NCBI GenBank assembly: GCA_002733665.1
Contig: NVWM01000011.1
Span: forward strand, 1,257-65,256
Direction: 5' to 3'
DNA from: Lutibacter sp.
GTDB lineage: Bacteria; Bacteroidota; Bacteroidia; Flavobacteriales; Flavobacteriaceae
Length of the DNA stretch: 64,000 bases
The notes under the pieces were generated by a model. That model did no database searches. It had not been told where the DNA came from and saw only the letters and a program-made list of their open reading frames with translations. Positions 6,638 to 64,000 of the stretch are shown here, piece by piece (the stretch's first letter is position 1; every line of letters begins with the position of its first letter). The position numbers were made by a program, and so were the translations under genes.

Positions 6638-6687
6638 TGTCATTCCTGTGAGGTCACTGAGCGTAGTCGAAGTGAAGGTAGGAATCT
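6638..6687. repeat. Intergenic repeat copy (TGAGCGTAGTCGAAGT type)
   Basis: TGTCATTCCTGTGAGGTCAC, then TGAGCGTAGTCGAAGT, then AGGTAGGAATCT form an imperfect hairpin just after tig. It shares the GTCATTC start and the AGTCGA core with the other intergenic copies. Confidence 0.65.
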
Positions 6688-45931: not shown

Positions 45932-47188
45932 TTATTTAATTTTAAAAACCTCTTTTACTTTATCTACATAATCCAATTTTTCCCAAGTAAAGGTTTCAAC
46001 TTCTTGCGTTACAATTTTTCCGTCAGGAGATTCAAAATGTACTGTTTTAATTTCAGGAGTTCGTCCCATATGACCATAAGCCGCAGTTTCAGAATATATA
46101 GGAGTTCTTAATTTCAATCTTTTTTCTATTGCTGCTGGTCGCATATCAAATAGTTTTTCAACAATTTTTGATATTTCTCCGTCAGACAAATCAATTTTTG
46201 AAGTTCCGTAAGTATCAACATTGATTGATGTTGGTTTTGCTACACCAATTGCGTAAGAGACTTGAATTAAAATTTCGTCAGAAACTCCTGCAGCAACCAT
46301 ATTTTTTGCAATATGTCGTGACGCATACGCAGCACTTCTGTCAACCTTACTTGGATCCTTTCCAGAGAATGCTCCACCTCCATGTGCACCTTTTCCTCCA
46401 TAAGTGTCAACGATAATTTTACGTCCTGTTAGTCCAGTATCTCCATGAGGTCCACCAATTACAAATTTTCCAGTAGGATTTATGTGATATGTGATTTGGT
46501 CATTAAAAAGAACTTGAATTTTTGTAGGTAATTTTGCAATAACTCTCGGAATTAAAATTGAAACTAAATCATTTTTAATTTTTGCCAACATTCTCTCATC
46601 TTCATCAAAATCATCGTGTTGAGTTGAAATAACAATTGTATCAATTCGTTGAGGTACATTGTCGTCAGAATATTCAATCGTAACTTGACTTTTTGCATCA
46701 GGTCTTAAATAAGGAACTTCGCTATTTTCTCTTCGGATTTCTGCTAATTCAACCAATAAGCGATGACTCAAATCTAATGCTAAAGGCATAAAATTTTCAG
46801 TTTCTTTGGTAGCATAACCAAACATCATTCCTTGGTCACCAGCACCTTGCTCATCATAACTTCCTCTCTCTACACCTTGGTTTATTTCTTTTGACTGTTC
46901 ATGTATAGCACTAAAAACGCCACAAGAATTCCCGTCAAACATATATTCACTTTTTGTATAACCAATTTTGTTGATAGTATCTCGTGCTATTTTTTGAACA
47001 TCTAAATAAGTTGTTGAATTTACCTCTCCTGCAAGTACCACTTGACCTGTAGTTACAAGGGTTTCACATGCAACTTTAGAATTTGGATCAAATGCTAAAA
47101 AGTTATCAATAAGTGCATCTGAGATTTGATCTGCAACTTTATCAGGATGCCCTTCTGAGACAGATTCTGATGTAAATAAATATGACAT
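45932..47188 (-). CDS. metK: S-adenosylmethionine synthetase
   Basis: MetK makes S-adenosylmethionine from methionine and ATP. The 418-residue length matches. The N-terminal [17 protein letters not shown], the central [20 protein letters not shown] and the phosphate-loop [17 protein letters not shown] are all intact. The 292-bp upstream gap to the next gene holds no recognisable SAM riboswitch. Confidence 0.97.
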
Positions 47189-59654: not shown

Positions 59655-60107
59655 ATGCCTGAAATTAAAATTCGTTTTACAAAAGAAGAAGATATCAATC
59701 AAATCATAGATTTATGTGAAGCACATGCAAACTATGAACAATGTGAATATGAGAAAGACGGGAAAGCAGAAAGATTAAGTAATAGTTTGTTTTCTGACAA
59801 TCCTAAACTGTTTTGTTTAGTAGTAGAAAAAGAGAATCAATTAATTGGATATGCAACGTATATGAAACAGTACTCTACTTGGGATGCAAACGAATATATT
59901 TATATGGATTGCTTATTTATGAATGAGAATGCACGTGGACATGGTTTGGGCGAAAACTTGGTCAGAAGAATTCAAGAAGAAGGGAAAAAACTCAATTGTA
60001 ATTTAATACAATGGCAAACTCCAGATTTTAATGTTAGAGCCATAAAGTTTTATAGGAGAATTGGTGCGAAATCAAAAGAGAAAGAACGTTTCTTTCTTGA
60101 AATATAA
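59655..60107 (+). CDS. GNAT-family N-acetyltransferase
   Basis: The 150-residue enzyme has the acetyl-CoA site of the GNAT fold (MNENARGHGLGENLVRRIQE, residues about 93-112). The preceding strand DCLFM and the closing IKFYRRIGAKSKEKERFFLE also fit. The acceptor substrate is unknown. It closes the DinB operon, whose end is followed by the promoter of the aromatic amino-acid operon. Confidence 0.88.
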   Translation: MPEIKIRFTKEEDINQIIDLCEAHANYEQCEYEKDGKAERLSNSLFSDNPKLFCLVVEKENQLIGYATYMKQYSTWDANEYIYMDCLFMNENARGHGLGENLVRRIQEEGKKLNCNLIQWQTPDFNVRAIKFYRRIGAKSKEKERFFLEI

Positions 60108-60135
60108 AATTTATTTCATTTTTTAGGCTAACTGC

Positions 60136-60165
60136 TTGTATATCTAATTTTTATTTTTAGATTTG
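60136..60165 (+). promoter_or_regulatory. Predicted promoter of the aromatic amino-acid operon leader
   Basis: TTG (60136-60138), exactly 19 bp, and TAGATTTG (60158-60165). The expected start, near 60171, puts the transcript just before the leader-peptide ATG at 60185. Confidence 0.85.
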
Positions 60166-60184
60166 TCACTTACAACGAAGAACA

Positions 60185-60247
60185 ATGAATTTACAAAACA
60201 ATTGGAACGGTTTCTATTTTTACTTTTATTTTTTTAATAAGAGTTGA
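60185..60247 (+). CDS. Aromatic leader peptide (attenuator peptide) of the phe/tyr operon
   Basis: A 20-codon ORF, too short for routine ORF calling. It starts ATG at 60185, has a Trp codon at 60203, then a run of eight aromatic codons, TTC TAT TTT TAC TTT TAT TTT (60212-60232) and a further TTT (60233-60235), and ends TGA at 60245-60247. The peptide contains five Phe, three Tyr and one Trp. This mirrors the classical pheA leader of enterobacteria. The stop codon overlaps the first arm of the antiterminator hairpin. A stalled ribosome during Phe/Tyr shortage would leave that arm free. Confidence 0.88.
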   Translation: MNLQNNWNGFYFYFYFFNKS

Positions 60248-60308
60248 GACTTTGCGCCATATTGTTAACAATATATCTGAAAGTCTCGAAATATCGAGGC
60301 TTTTTTTT
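60246..60308 (+). promoter_or_regulatory. Transcription attenuator with mutually exclusive hairpins
   Basis: Antiterminator: GAGACTTT (60246-60253) pairs perfectly with AAAGTCTC (60280-60287), enclosing an inner ATATTG-TTAA-CAATAT hairpin (60259-60274). Terminator: AAGTCTCGA (60281-60289) pairs with TCGAGGCTT (60294-60302), with an AATA loop and one G-U wobble, followed by eight T (60301-60308). The arms share 60281-60287, so only one structure can form. Confidence 0.85.
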
Positions 60309-60384
60309 GTGAATAAAAGAGCGTATGAACCGAGCGTGTTAAAAACTTTGTCATTTAATGAAAATGATTAATAGCGAACACATG

Positions 60385-60414
60385 CTTGTACTGAGCGAAG
60401 TCGAAGTGTGACAG
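60385..60414. repeat. Intergenic repeat copy upstream of pheA
   Basis: CTTGTACTGAGCGAAGTCGA and AGTGTGACAG share the AGTCGAAGT core with the copy at 6638-6687. Confidence 0.6.
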
Positions 60415-60436
60415 TTAAAAACAATAGGAATAACAC

Positions 60437-61261
60437 ATGAATAAAATAGCCATTCAAGGAATAAAAGGATCTAATCACCATATAGTTGCCAATAACTATT
60501 TTGGAGAAGATATTGTATTAGATGAATGCTTGTCTTTTGATGTTTTGGTAGATAGTTTGCTAAGCGGAAAAAGTGAGCAAGCAATCATGGCTATAGAAAA
60601 TACAATTGCTGGTTCTATAATTCCTAATTATGCGTTGATGGACAAATATGACTTACATATTTCAGGAGAGTATTACTTAAATATTCATCATCAGTTAATG
60701 GCAATTCCAAATCAAAAAATTGAAGATATTACAGAGGTTTGTTCACATCCGATGGCATTATTGCAGTGTAAAGAGTTTTTTAAAAATCACAATCATATCA
60801 AACTAATAGAAGGTGTAGACACATCAGCAATTGCAAAAAGAATTTCAGAAAATAAAATAAAAGGGTTGGCTGCAATTGCACCTAAACTTGCGGCAGATAT
60901 TTTTGGATTAGAAATTATCGAAGACGAAATTCAAACTATTAAAGATAATTCTACTCGTTTTGTGATTTTGCAAACTACAAAACCTAAAAATGGTAAAAGT
61001 GAGATTAATAAGGCATCTTTAAAATTAGAATTAGATCATAAAAGAGGAAGTTTAGCGGCACTATTAAATATGATGAGCGATTGTAAATTGAATTTGACTA
61101 AAATACAATCGTTACCTAAAATTGAAACGCCTTGGAAGTATGCTTTTTTTGTAGATGTTACGTTTGATGATTATAAAGATTATGAAAAAGCAGTGAAAAT
61201 TATCGAAATAATGGCTTTAGAATTTAAAATTTTGGGAGAATATAAAAACGGAAGAATATGA
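60437..61261 (+). CDS. pheA: Prephenate dehydratase
   Basis: The enzyme converts prephenate to phenylpyruvate, the committed step to phenylalanine. The 274-residue monofunctional form has no chorismate mutase domain. The N-terminal IAIQGIKGSNHHIVA, the catalytic NSTRFVIL (Thr-Arg-Phe motif, about residues 171-178) and the C-terminal ACT regulatory domain (about 190-270) are present. It overlaps the next aminotransferase gene by 4 bp and leads the operon, downstream of the attenuator. Confidence 0.94.
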   Translation: MNKIAIQGIKGSNHHIVANNYFGEDIVLDECLSFDVLVDSLLSGKSEQAIMAIENTIAGSIIPNYALMDKYDLHISGEYYLNIHHQLMAIPNQKIEDITEVCSHPMALLQCKEFFKNHNHIKLIEGVDTSAIAKRISENKIKGLAAIAPKLAADIFGLEIIEDEIQTIKDNSTRFVILQTTKPKNGKSEINKASLKLELDHKRGSLAALLNMMSDCKLNLTKIQSLPKIETPWKYAFFVDVTFDDYKDYEKAVKIIEIMALEFKILGEYKNGRI

Positions 61262-62400
61262 TACAATTTGCAGACCGTTTAGAAACAGTACAAGAATACT
61301 ATTTCTCAAAAAAATTGAGAGAAGTTAGAAGTTTAATTTCTGATGGAAAACCTATTATTAATATAGGAATTGGAAGTCCAGATTTAAAACCTTCAAAAGA
61401 AGTTATTCAAGCAATTCAAAATAGTTTGAACGATGTAAACGCTCATAAATATCAAAGTTATCAAGGTTTGCCAGAATTTAGAAATGCAGTTTCTGAATTT
61501 TATGAAAACAAGTTTAATGTAAATTTAGATTCTGAAAATGAAATTTTGCCATTAATGGGAAGCAAAGAAGGAATTATGCATATTTCTTTGGCTTTGCTGA
61601 ATGATGGAGATAAAGTGCTAATCCCAAATCCTGGTTACCCAACATATAGTTCAGTAACGAATTTGGTTGGAGCGAAACCAGTTTATTACGATTTAGATGA
61701 GCATACTAATTATCAGCCTAATTTTGAAAAATTAGAAAAGCAAGATTTATCTAAAGTTAAATTATTGTGGGTAAATTATCCGCACATGCCAACTGGTGCA
61801 AATGCTCTTAAAAGTACGTTTGAAAAGTTAGTTTCTTTTGGGAAGAAACATAATATTGTCATTGTAAATGACAATCCTTATAGTTTTATTCTGAATGACA
61901 ATCCTCAAAGTATTTTACAAGTAGATGGTGCTAAAGACATTGCTTTAGAATTAAATTCGTTGAGCAAATCTTTTAACATGGCAGGATGGCGTGTTGGAAT
62001 GTTATTAGGAAATGAACATTTTTTAAATCAGATATTGAAAGTGAAAACTCAAATGGATTCAGGAATGTTTTATGGCATTCAAAAAGGAGCGATTGCGGCT
62101 TTAGAATTATCAAACGACTGGTTTGATGGCTTGAATAAAACATATAAAAAACGAAGAGACTTAGTATGGAAACTTGCTGATAAATTGAATTGCACATACG
62201 ATAAAACTGCTTTAGGAATGTTTGTTTGGGCGAAACTCCCAGAAGGAAAAACTTCTGAAGAGATGGTGGATGAATTATTATATGAAAAGAATATTTTCAT
62301 TGCTCCAGGAACAATTTTTGGAACAAAAGGAGAAGGATACGTTCGGTTTTCACTGTGTGTTACAAATGAGCAAATAAAAGAAGCAATCAATAGGCTATAA
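61258..62400 (+). CDS. Class I/II aminotransferase, probably aromatic
   Basis: The 380-residue PLP enzyme has the Lys Schiff base in SLSKSFNMAGWRVGML, the NDNPYSFILND cofactor asparagine/tyrosine stretch and the substrate-arginine VRFSLCV near the end. In this operon it most likely transaminates phenylpyruvate and 4-hydroxyphenylpyruvate, which is inference; LL-diaminopimelate aminotransferase-like folds are an alternative reading. Its start overlaps pheA by 4 bp. Confidence 0.88.
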   Translation: MIQFADRLETVQEYYFSKKLREVRSLISDGKPIINIGIGSPDLKPSKEVIQAIQNSLNDVNAHKYQSYQGLPEFRNAVSEFYENKFNVNLDSENEILPLMGSKEGIMHISLALLNDGDKVLIPNPGYPTYSSVTNLVGAKPVYYDLDEHTNYQPNFEKLEKQDLSKVKLLWVNYPHMPTGANALKSTFEKLVSFGKKHNIVIVNDNPYSFILNDNPQSILQVDGAKDIALELNSLSKSFNMAGWRVGMLLGNEHFLNQILKVKTQMDSGMFYGIQKGAIAALELSNDWFDGLNKTYKKRRDLVWKLADKLNCTYDKTALGMFVWAKLPEGKTSEEMVDELLYEKNIFIAPGTIFGTKGEGYVRFSLCVTNEQIKEAINRL

Positions 62401-62462: not shown

Positions 62463-63311
62463 ATGAACATATTTATAATAGGAGTCGGATTAATTGGCGG
62501 AAGCATGGCTTTAGATATTCAAGGAAAATATCCTGAAGCAAAAATTTTCGGAATAGATTCAAATAAAGAGCATTTAAATGAGGCTCTTGAATTAGGAATT
62601 ATTCATCAAAAAGCAACATTTGAAGAGTTGGGTAAAGCATCACTTGTGATTGTTTCAATTCCTGTTGATGTGCAAATAAATGTTATTCCAAAAGTACTAA
62701 ATTTAATAAGTGATGATGCATTAGTTATGGATGTAGGTTCGACAAAGTCACAAATCTGTGAAGGAGTAAAAGATCATCCGAAAAGAAGAAATTTTTTAGC
62801 AACACATCCTATTGCTGGAACAGAATTTTCTGGACCATCAGCAGCCATAAAGGGGTTGTTTGAAGGAAAGACAAATATTATTTGCGAAGTAGAAAAAACA
62901 GCATTCAAATTGCAAGAAAAAGCACTTGAAATTTTGACAAATATAGGAATGAGAATTAGATATATGGATCCAAAATCGCACGATAAGCATATTGCGTATA
63001 TGTCTCATCTGTCACATATTAGTTCTTTTATGTTGGGAAAAACAGTTATTGAAAAAGAAAAAAACGAACGTGATATTTTTGATATGGCTGGAAGTGGATT
63101 TGAGTCGACAGTTCGTTTGGCAAAAAGTTCTCCAGAAATGTGGACGCCCATTTTTGAGCAGAATAAAGAAAATGTGATAGAAACATTAGAAGAATATATA
63201 AATAATTTAGAAGAATTTAAAACATTAATGCAGCAAGATAACTTTTCGGAAATATATCAAAAAATGAAAAGCACAAATTATATAAAACAAATATTAAACG
63301 GGATTAAATAA
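62463..63311 (+). CDS. tyrA: Prephenate dehydrogenase
   Basis: TyrA oxidatively decarboxylates prephenate to 4-hydroxyphenylpyruvate, the tyrosine branch. The 282-residue protein has the NAD(P)-binding GVGLIGGSMALDI (residues 7-19), VMDVGSTKSQICEGV, HPIAGTEFSGPSAA and the C-terminal helical part. There is no chorismate mutase domain. It is in the same operon as pheA, so both branches answer to the same leader. Confidence 0.94.
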   Translation: MNIFIIGVGLIGGSMALDIQGKYPEAKIFGIDSNKEHLNEALELGIIHQKATFEELGKASLVIVSIPVDVQINVIPKVLNLISDDALVMDVGSTKSQICEGVKDHPKRRNFLATHPIAGTEFSGPSAAIKGLFEGKTNIICEVEKTAFKLQEKALEILTNIGMRIRYMDPKSHDKHIAYMSHLSHISSFMLGKTVIEKEKNERDIFDMAGSGFESTVRLAKSSPEMWTPIFEQNKENVIETLEEYINNLEEFKTLMQQDNFSEIYQKMKSTNYIKQILNGIK

Positions 63312-63329: not shown

Positions 63330-64000
63330 ATGAAGAATACAAAAGAATTAAGAACATGGTTGGATGATATGAATTTAGCACATCCTCTAGTAATAGCAGG
63401 GCCTTGTAGTGCAGAAACCGAAGAGCAGGTTTTGAAGATTGCACACGAATTAAAAGATTCTGATGTAAATTATTTTAGAGCAGGAATTTGGAAACCAAGA
63501 ACAAGACCAGGAAATTTTGAAGGTGTGGGAGCATTAGGTTTAAATTGGTTGAAGAAAGTAAAAGAAGAAACAGGAATGAAAACTTGTACTGAAGTTGCAA
63601 ATGCAGCACATGTTAAATTGGCTTTAGAAAACGATGTTGATTTATTGTGGATTGGTGCGCGCTCTACGGTTTCCCCTTTTATCATGCAAGAAATTGCAGA
63701 TGCATTGAAAGGAACTGATAAAATTGTACTAGTTAAGAACCCTGTTAATCCAGACTTGGCATTATGGTTAGGCGGAATTGAAAGGTTATATACGGCAGGA
63801 ATTAAAAATTTAGGAGCAATTCATAGAGGGTTTTCGACTTATGAGAAATCGAAGTATAGAAATATTCCTGAATGGCAATTGGCAATTGAGTTTCAAAACC
63901 GATTTCCAGATTTACCATTAATTTGTGATCCTTCACATATTACTGGAGACAGAGAAATGATTCAAGATGTTTCTCAAAGAGCTTTAGATTTAAATTTTGA
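63330..64000 (+). CDS. DAHP synthase, probably fused to chorismate mutase (truncated by the window)
   Basis: The ATG at 63330 opens a frame (MKNTKELRTWLDDMNLAHPL) that runs off the window end at about residue 223. It contains VIAGPCSAETEEQVLKIAHE, FRAGIWKPRTRPGNFEG, GLNWLKKVKEETGM and CDPSHITGDREM, typical of the KdsA-like (type I-beta) 3-deoxy-7-phosphoheptulonate synthase. In flavobacteria this form usually carries a C-terminal AroQ chorismate mutase, which is outside the window, so the fusion is inferred. It would complete the operon by supplying the first step and prephenate. Confidence 0.9.
   Translation, partial: MKNTKELRTWLDDMNLAHPLVIAGPCSAETEEQVLKIAHELKDSDVNYFRAGIWKPRTRPGNFEGVGALGLNWLKKVKEETGMKTCTEVANAAHVKLALENDVDLLWIGARSTVSPFIMQEIADALKGTDKIVLVKNPVNPDLALWLGGIERLYTAGIKNLGAIHRGFSTYEKSKYRNIPEWQLAIEFQNRFPDLPLICDPSHITGDREMIQDVSQRALDLNF

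Follow-up and report, generated by a model that had tools for sequence, protein, structure and literature searches.

A conserved, very probable Phe/Tyr leader-peptide attenuator ahead of the flavobacterial pheA operon

The pheA-aminotransferase-tyrA-DAHP synthase operon of a Lutibacter sp. is preceded by a real and strongly conserved attenuator of a known kind, which carries a dual Phe/Tyr code. We place a probability of about 0.9 on the reading that this element is a ribosome-mediated transcription attenuator that senses the supply of both Phe and Tyr and thereby sets transcription of the whole operon. The site lies in a 64,000-nucleotide stretch of DNA, here called the window; the coordinates of its features are collected in Table 1.

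Table 1. Elements of the attenuator and genes of the operon behind it, in window coordinates
Feature	Position	Strand	Basis and remarks
Promoter	60136..60165	+	TTG at 60136-60138, 19-nt spacer, TAGATTTG at 60158-60165 (-7 box TAnnTTTG); read directly
Leader peptide ORF, MNLQNNWNGFYFYFYFFNKS	60185..60247	+	ATG at 60185, 20 sense codons, stop TGA at 60245-60247; read directly; leaders in 126/129 family-type loci
Single Trp codon 5' of the Phe/Tyr run	60203..60205	+	Read directly; Trp codon in 88/140 leaders
Control codons F Y F Y F Y F F, eight consecutive (5 Phe, 3 Tyr)	60212..60235	+	Read directly
Antiterminator 5' arm (arm 2), overlapping the leader stop codon	60246..60253	+	GAGACTTT; read directly; duplex energy; covariation
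Arm 3, common to antiterminator and terminator	60280..60287	+	AAAGTCTC; pairs with arm 2 or with the terminator 3' arm; read directly; covariation
Intrinsic terminator	60280..60308	+	10-bp stem 60280-60289/60294-60303, T8 at 60301-60308; read directly; terminator scan; covariation
pheA, prephenate dehydratase, 274 aa	60437..61261	+	NF008865, 179.9 bits, E 5.5e-53; below curated cut-off of 219
Aminotransferase class I/II, substrate not settled	61258..62400	+	Best model LL-diaminopimelate aminotransferase, below its cut-off
tyrA, prephenate dehydrogenase	62463..63311	+	NF006307, 393.8 bits; cut-off 295
DAHP synthase, cut by the window end	63330..63998	+	Best NF006421, 139 bits; TIGR01361, 127 bits; on the truncated protein

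An earlier sequence-only reading had proposed a promoter, a 20-codon ORF with eight consecutive Phe/Tyr codons and one Trp codon, a perfect 8-bp antiterminator whose first arm overlaps the leader stop codon, and a terminator sharing an arm with it. Direct reading bears out the ORF and its codons, the perfect pairing of GAGACTTT with AAAGTCTC in the antiterminator and the overlap of the stop codon with arm 2; the promoter likewise stands and fits the flavobacterial -7 box consensus TAnnTTTG given in the accessible text of Guerin et al. 2021 (PMC9723704). Only the terminator had to be redrawn: its T8 tail and shared arm hold, but the 9-bp stem placed at 60281-60302 is in fact a stem of 10 bp, including one G-U pair, with a possible additional outer G-U. 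Folding of the RNA from 60171 to 60320, which had been suggested as a check, gave -32.3 kcal/mol (z -3.34), a value as low as which none of 200 shuffles came. A terminator scan returned one terminator against 0.2 expected, and this terminator stands between the leader and pheA. The T run is followed 128 nt downstream by the pheA start, and the leader begins 252 nt 5' of pheA, farther than in most relatives. Between terminator and pheA there is also a repeat, CTGAGCGAAGTCGAAGTGT, at 60391-60409, of which a second copy occurs at 6657-6675 (two mismatches; none expected). In the wider set of loci described below, the motif TAnnTTnG is found 8-45 nt 5' of the leader ATG in 118 of 140 cases, compared with 10% of shuffles.

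The assignment of the downstream genes to a four-gene pheA-aminotransferase-tyrA-DAHP synthase operon proved right by similarity; only tyrA passes its curated NCBIfam cut-off among the four. Gene order was judged in 37 flavobacterial loci with enough downstream sequence, namely 36 named contigs and the window. A DAHP synthase lies 3' of pheA in all 37, and the complete four-gene order is kept in 34. Two loci (L036, L037) have the order pheA-tyrA-DAHP synthase, without an aminotransferase in between. In Flavobacterium terrae (L038, 4501-5400) the DAHP synthase directly follows pheA, and no aminotransferase or tyrA match was present within 4.5 kb; the leader of this locus nevertheless has Phe, Tyr and Trp codons.

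To place the element in its relatives, pheA loci were gathered from the named contigs and from genomes of the family, class and phylum, and a leader was scored where a short ORF with at least 6 Phe/Tyr per 10 codons lay no more than 400 nt 5' of pheA. Such a leader was found in 126 of 129 family-type loci (the window, 38 named contigs and 90 loci from further family genomes), with all 38 named flavobacterial loci carrying it. Over all loci, 140 of 155 real upstream regions contain a leader, and the same 400-nt search scored 89 of 1,550 dinucleotide shuffles, 6 of 155 reverse strands and 4 of 575 other stretches. The presence of the leader before pheA is thus far beyond chance. A chance origin, with a T-rich stretch that reads as Phe/Tyr codons only by accident and a terminator that has nothing to do with it, would draw on the readiness of AT-rich DNA to yield such frames, as the 89 shuffles attest, but it is set against the 140 of 155 real regions, the mere 4 of 575 other stretches and the covariation of both hairpins; its probability is negligible, and the conservation of the leader already refutes it.

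An even sample of 120 family genomes gave a similar picture. PheA was found in 102 of them, of which 101 were examined, and a leader was seen in 97 of the 101 by a first scan and in 99 after a wider look upstream. Inserted DNA displaces the leader to -457 in one of these loci (L103); in another (L054) it is displaced to -646 and needs its Trp counted to reach 6 of 10, and the insert between leader and pheA seems to hold repeated copies. No leader was found in the 1,344 nt 5' of pheA in family genome L114, nor in the roughly 310 nt available upstream on the contig of L189, whose pheA has an internal stop. A PheA match (E 0.001) was absent in 18 of the 120 genomes, 10 of which are at least 99% complete; loss of the Phe branch, a divergent enzyme or a loose first search filter could each account for these. 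As to the composition of the samples, L040 (22 nt upstream) and L001 (a copy of the window) were left out of the 155-locus count, and L040 is likewise outside the 38 named loci; two Clostridia loci without a leader (L041, L042) were left out of the class count, and G048 (137 nt upstream on its contig) and G292 stand outside the counts. L018, L036 and L037, whose taxon is given only to order or phylum, were counted among the 38 named family loci. Some loci from the two samples belong to the same assembly (for example L024 and L067, with the same peptide), and the 126 family leaders encode 121 distinct peptides, whose related rows are not independent.

For the analysis of the paired arms, oddly sized or identical leader regions were dropped (125 of 126 kept) and two near copies, L005 and L039, were removed by hand, leaving 123 aligned family leaders. 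In the terminator, 95.8% of cells are paired, and two-sided changes occur in 7 of 10 pairs and 75 cells, with none of 500 shuffles as high; a terminator is present in 140 of 140 leader loci, a count made without a shuffle control. In the antiterminator, 74.8% of cells are paired, 57 cells show two-sided change and the covariation score is 0.269, each unequalled in 500 shuffles, and sliding the antiterminator by 1-3 columns lowers the covariation score to 0.150 or less. Two of the five antiterminator measures did not rise above shuffles, these being how many pairs show two-sided change (equalled or exceeded in 57 of 500 shuffles) and how many further pair types occur (288 of 500), the latter being more numerous when the antiterminator is slid by -1 to -3. 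One base of arm 3 changes together with both of its partners: columns 83/167/189 read A-U-A in 47, A-U-G in 29 and G-C-G in 39 of the 123 leaders, where the switch from AU to GC needs only at least four changes on the tree. A test of arm changes on independent pairs produced one starred pair, too few to carry meaning.

The mean duplex energy of a locus's own arm 2 with its own arm 3 is -12.1 kcal/mol, versus -8.9 kcal/mol with the arm 3 of other loci and -5.5 kcal/mol after shuffling of the arm-2 region; own arm 3 beats the swapped mean in 136 of 140 loci, and for any one arm 2 a median of about 11% of other loci's arm 3 sequences are better partners than its own. Judged from the aligned leaders, both hairpins, terminator and antiterminator, covary. 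The expectation that the codon run and the paired arms would be conserved in relatives is upheld. A 1:2 protector (pause) hairpin, which appears in the window fold and is not part of the sequence-only reading, has no support from covariation across the aligned leaders: 65.6% of its cells are paired versus 64.9% in shuffles, and 47 of 500 shuffles are as high.

The spacing of these elements is also conserved. The last aromatic codon of the run ends 8-21 nt 5' of arm 2 in all 123 aligned leaders, and the alignment places the start of arm 2 anywhere from 25 nt 5' to 9 nt 3' of the stop codon; when arm 2 is located by duplex energy, 4 of 140 loci (L110, L146, L152, L153) have its start beyond the range -30 to +20 relative to the stop. 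In 132 of 140 loci a ribosome standing at the stop codon is computed to occupy at least part of arm 2. Folding with the ribosome masked yields the antiterminator in 139 of 140 loci for a stalled ribosome and the terminator in 140 of 140 for a finished leader, a result with some circularity, since arm 2 had been picked as the sequence most complementary to arm 3.

We infer that the leader is translated, that the leading ribosome is coupled to RNA polymerase and that the switch responds to starvation. With Phe-tRNA and Tyr-tRNA plentiful, the leading ribosome would reach the stop codon at 60245-60247 and cover arm 2; arm 3 would then pair with arm 4, and RNA polymerase would stop in the T run at about 60308. 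With charged Phe-tRNA or Tyr-tRNA in short supply, the ribosome would stall inside the control codons and leave arm 2 free to pair with arm 3 before arm 4 is made, so that polymerase would read on into pheA. Control might instead proceed without ribosome stalling, through a protein or small molecule acting on the hairpins, with the ORF incidental or encoding a small protein, and flavobacteria do have structured 5' elements of unknown kind, according to the accessible part of PMC9723704. We consider such control very improbable given that conservation extends to the codon run and its distance from arm 2, the peptide being otherwise variable (121 distinct among 126), that the site has no riboswitch or T-box match in Rfam, and that searches with leader peptides gave 0 matches in NCBIfam (five peptides) and 0 in Pfam (four peptides). 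The attenuator interpretation of the sequence-only reading is supported by the conserved codon run, the covarying hairpins, a mixed code in 140 of 140 leaders and a gene order kept in 34 of 37 loci.

Each of the 140 leaders contains at least 3 Phe and at least 2 Tyr codons. The core residues of the 126 family leaders number F 538, Y 370, N 104, W 86, T 45, S 31, L 2 and I 1, with no C or V, a composition that is partly selected because leaders were chosen by their Phe+Tyr content. Choosing the ORF by Phe alone, as a check on this selection by aromatic density, picks the same ORF in 135 of 140 loci. Such a check bears on the reading in which only Phe is sensed and Tyr codons, being close to Phe codons (TTT to TAT), are tolerated, as might be thought from the single base that separates them and from enteric pheL, which reads Phe alone. 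Yet S, L, I, V and C, the other one-step neighbours of Phe codons and as near as Tyr, number only 45, 17, 10, 6 and 1 between the first and last Phe of the ORFs chosen by Phe alone, compared with 312 for Y; Tyr is therefore kept, and not merely tolerated. Together with the two or more Tyr codons in every leader, this makes the Phe-only reading improbable, and the mixed Phe/Tyr code first proposed for the window holds across the set under either choice of ORF.

Whether the recurring Trp codon is a third control codon, so that all three aromatics are read, is a different matter. Such a role would fit a DAHP synthase that feeds three pathways, and this enzyme follows in 37 of 37 flavobacterial loci with enough downstream sequence. 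Trp codons occur in 85 of the 126 family leaders and make up 89 of 3,147 residues in the leaders as a whole (2.8%), against 157 TGG in at most 260 codons of each of 140 pheA genes (about 0.4%); their place varies between lineages, and in 85 of 88 leaders the Trp codon ends at least 12 nt 5' of arm 2, where a stall leaves arm 2 free. Against this, Trp is absent from 12 of the 36 known leaders of those loci despite the DAHP synthase, just 3 of the 14 leaders from outside the family have it, it is gained or lost at least 24 times on the tree, and a separate WWW leader precedes a trpE-like gene in the same genome. The TGG of the window also pairs downstream in the predicted fold, so the role of the Trp codon could be structural. 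Weighing these points, we hold a three-amino-acid code to be possible, at somewhat less than even odds. A comparison of Trp codons with DAHP synthase content offered no contrast, as the enzyme is present in all 37 loci with or without Trp.

The architecture is that of enteric pheL, in which a leader rich in the operon's amino acid and an antiterminator and terminator with a common arm stand before prephenate dehydratase. The present site differs from pheL in using Phe and Tyr instead of Phe alone and in standing also before tyrA and DAHP synthase. The corresponding Rfam family, RF01859 (Phe_leader), ranked best for 60100-60460, at 23.9 bits and E 0.074; the site is not a member, because this score is below the gathering score of 55. 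Single leaders that read several amino acids of a branched pathway are familiar from enteric thrL (Thr, Ile) and ilvL (Ile, Val, Leu), which concern other amino acids in another phylum. The Phe-rich aroR leader of Corynebacterium glutamicum, before the DAHP synthase gene aroF, resembles the site in joining an aromatic leader to DAHP synthase and likewise belongs to another phylum. A 2010 comparative study by Lopatovskaya, Seliverstov and Lyubetsky may include Bacteroidetes attenuators. Rfam T-box models give no match at the window site, and at gathering score there were 0 Rfam matches in 20 leader-bearing loci (13 of the family, 4 of other families of the class and 3 of other classes). RF01692 (Bacteroid-trp) reads Trp, not Phe/Tyr, and gives no hit at the window site (gathering score 49); Bacteroid-trp appears in Table 1 of Weinberg et al. 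2010 (PMC2864571, as far as its accessible text goes) as a candidate cis-regulatory RNA of Bacteroidetes.

Closest in print is the study of F. psychrophilum by Guerin et al. 2021 (PMC9723704), whose accessible text presents strong clues for leader-peptide attenuation before amino-acid biosynthesis operons and describes, ahead of pheA, a structured 5' element that has no Rfam hit and that other genera of the Flavobacteriaceae conserve. Place, conservation in other genera and lack of an Rfam hit all agree with the present site, which is very probably that same element; in the text accessible to us, the codons, arms and mixed Phe/Tyr code are not given and the element is not expressly called a leader-peptide case. 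The sequence-only reading accordingly set the novelty too high, since both flavobacterial leader-peptide attenuation and the structured element before pheA had already been reported there. Our literature search, made without supplements or subscription papers, found no printed account of a mixed Phe/Tyr leader; searches on leader-peptide attenuation in Bacteroidota and on leader-peptide coupling in Bacteroidetes found no paper by those terms, and among the papers listed none is, by its title, on ribosome-polymerase coupling in Bacteroidota. In the portions accessible, a B. thetaiotaomicron map (PMC7366714) mentions leader-like sORFs, PMC8305728 treats attenuation only as general background to histidine regulation, and Naville and Gautheret 2010 (PMC2965389) forms part of the earlier literature.

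The same genome contains further leaders of this kind. A Trp leader, MKINNNIWWWNSLNR, lies at about 1575 on the reverse strand of its contig C10 (L157), before a trpE-like gene that scores 416.3 bits with TIGR00564, below the curated cut-off of 517.7; the region gives an RF01692 hit of 47.5 bits, just below the cut-off of 49. A His-rich leader, MNTNQLHHRHFHTCTQARRK, is found about 185 nt 5' of hisG (L227, about 1317), and an Ile/Val-rich leader, MNKNILNIISIIIVSVIIT, about 0.4 kb 5' of ilvD (L228, reverse strand, about 1043). All three are followed by a terminator-like hairpin, recognised by eye and unscored, and by eye a T run also follows the hairpin of the His and Ile/Val leaders. These leaders support a genome-wide use of attenuation, and when the Phe/Tyr leader is added to them attenuation looks like a general strategy in this organism, as in enterics. 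The window also contains an ordinary SAM-II riboswitch (RF01726, 47244-47326, minus strand), directly 5' of 45932-47188, which we take to be metK, encoding S-adenosylmethionine synthetase.

In other families of the class the leader was found in 24 of 35 examined loci (14 of 24 in a first set and 10 of 11 in a further one), the remaining 11 scoring below 6 Phe/Tyr per 10 codons. This class sample consists of genomes in which PheA was found, and a single-protein query saw PheA in 26 of 90, so that the class is thinly sampled; out-of-class genomes were searched with an alignment query, which is more sensitive. PheA was present in 103 genomes outside the class, from which 26 loci were examined: four carry a leader (L182, L185, L203, L204), and none was found in the other 22. 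The same four are the only out-of-class genomes whose PheA exceeds 350 bits with a Bacteroidia-type profile, the next scoring 283. In a PheA tree of 70 hand-picked rows, built by a quick method, a single starred group of 46 takes in all 38 rows with a leader, and the leader label changes 7 times compared with a shuffled mean of 23.2 (0 of 500 as low); for this labelling, L147 (score 4) was taken to have a leader, seen by eye with matching arms, and L151 (score 4) to have none. The leader is thus tied to a single PheA lineage. Its four occurrences outside the class look like cases in which pheA was transferred together with its leader, or else like misplaced contigs or contamination. Only tentatively, and with more doubt than confidence, do we extend this to a common history, in which one type of attenuator, reading Phe and Tyr and in most Flavobacteriaceae also Trp, may have originated along with the Bacteroidia-type pheA lineage, persisted in different families of the class and moved with pheA into other classes of the phylum.

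To the element already flagged before flavobacterial pheA, the present analysis adds its anatomy, the conservation of its code and of both hairpins, its reach into other families of the class and its link to one PheA lineage. Bacteroidota ribosomes mostly work without Shine-Dalgarno pairing. If the proposed history is true, persistence of the attenuator would imply kinetic coupling between RNA polymerase and the leading ribosome in Bacteroidota. The attenuator offers a clean, testable reporter for such coupling. It also illustrates how a single switch can sit ahead of the two aromatic branches and their entry enzyme, both amino acids being kept in every leader found.
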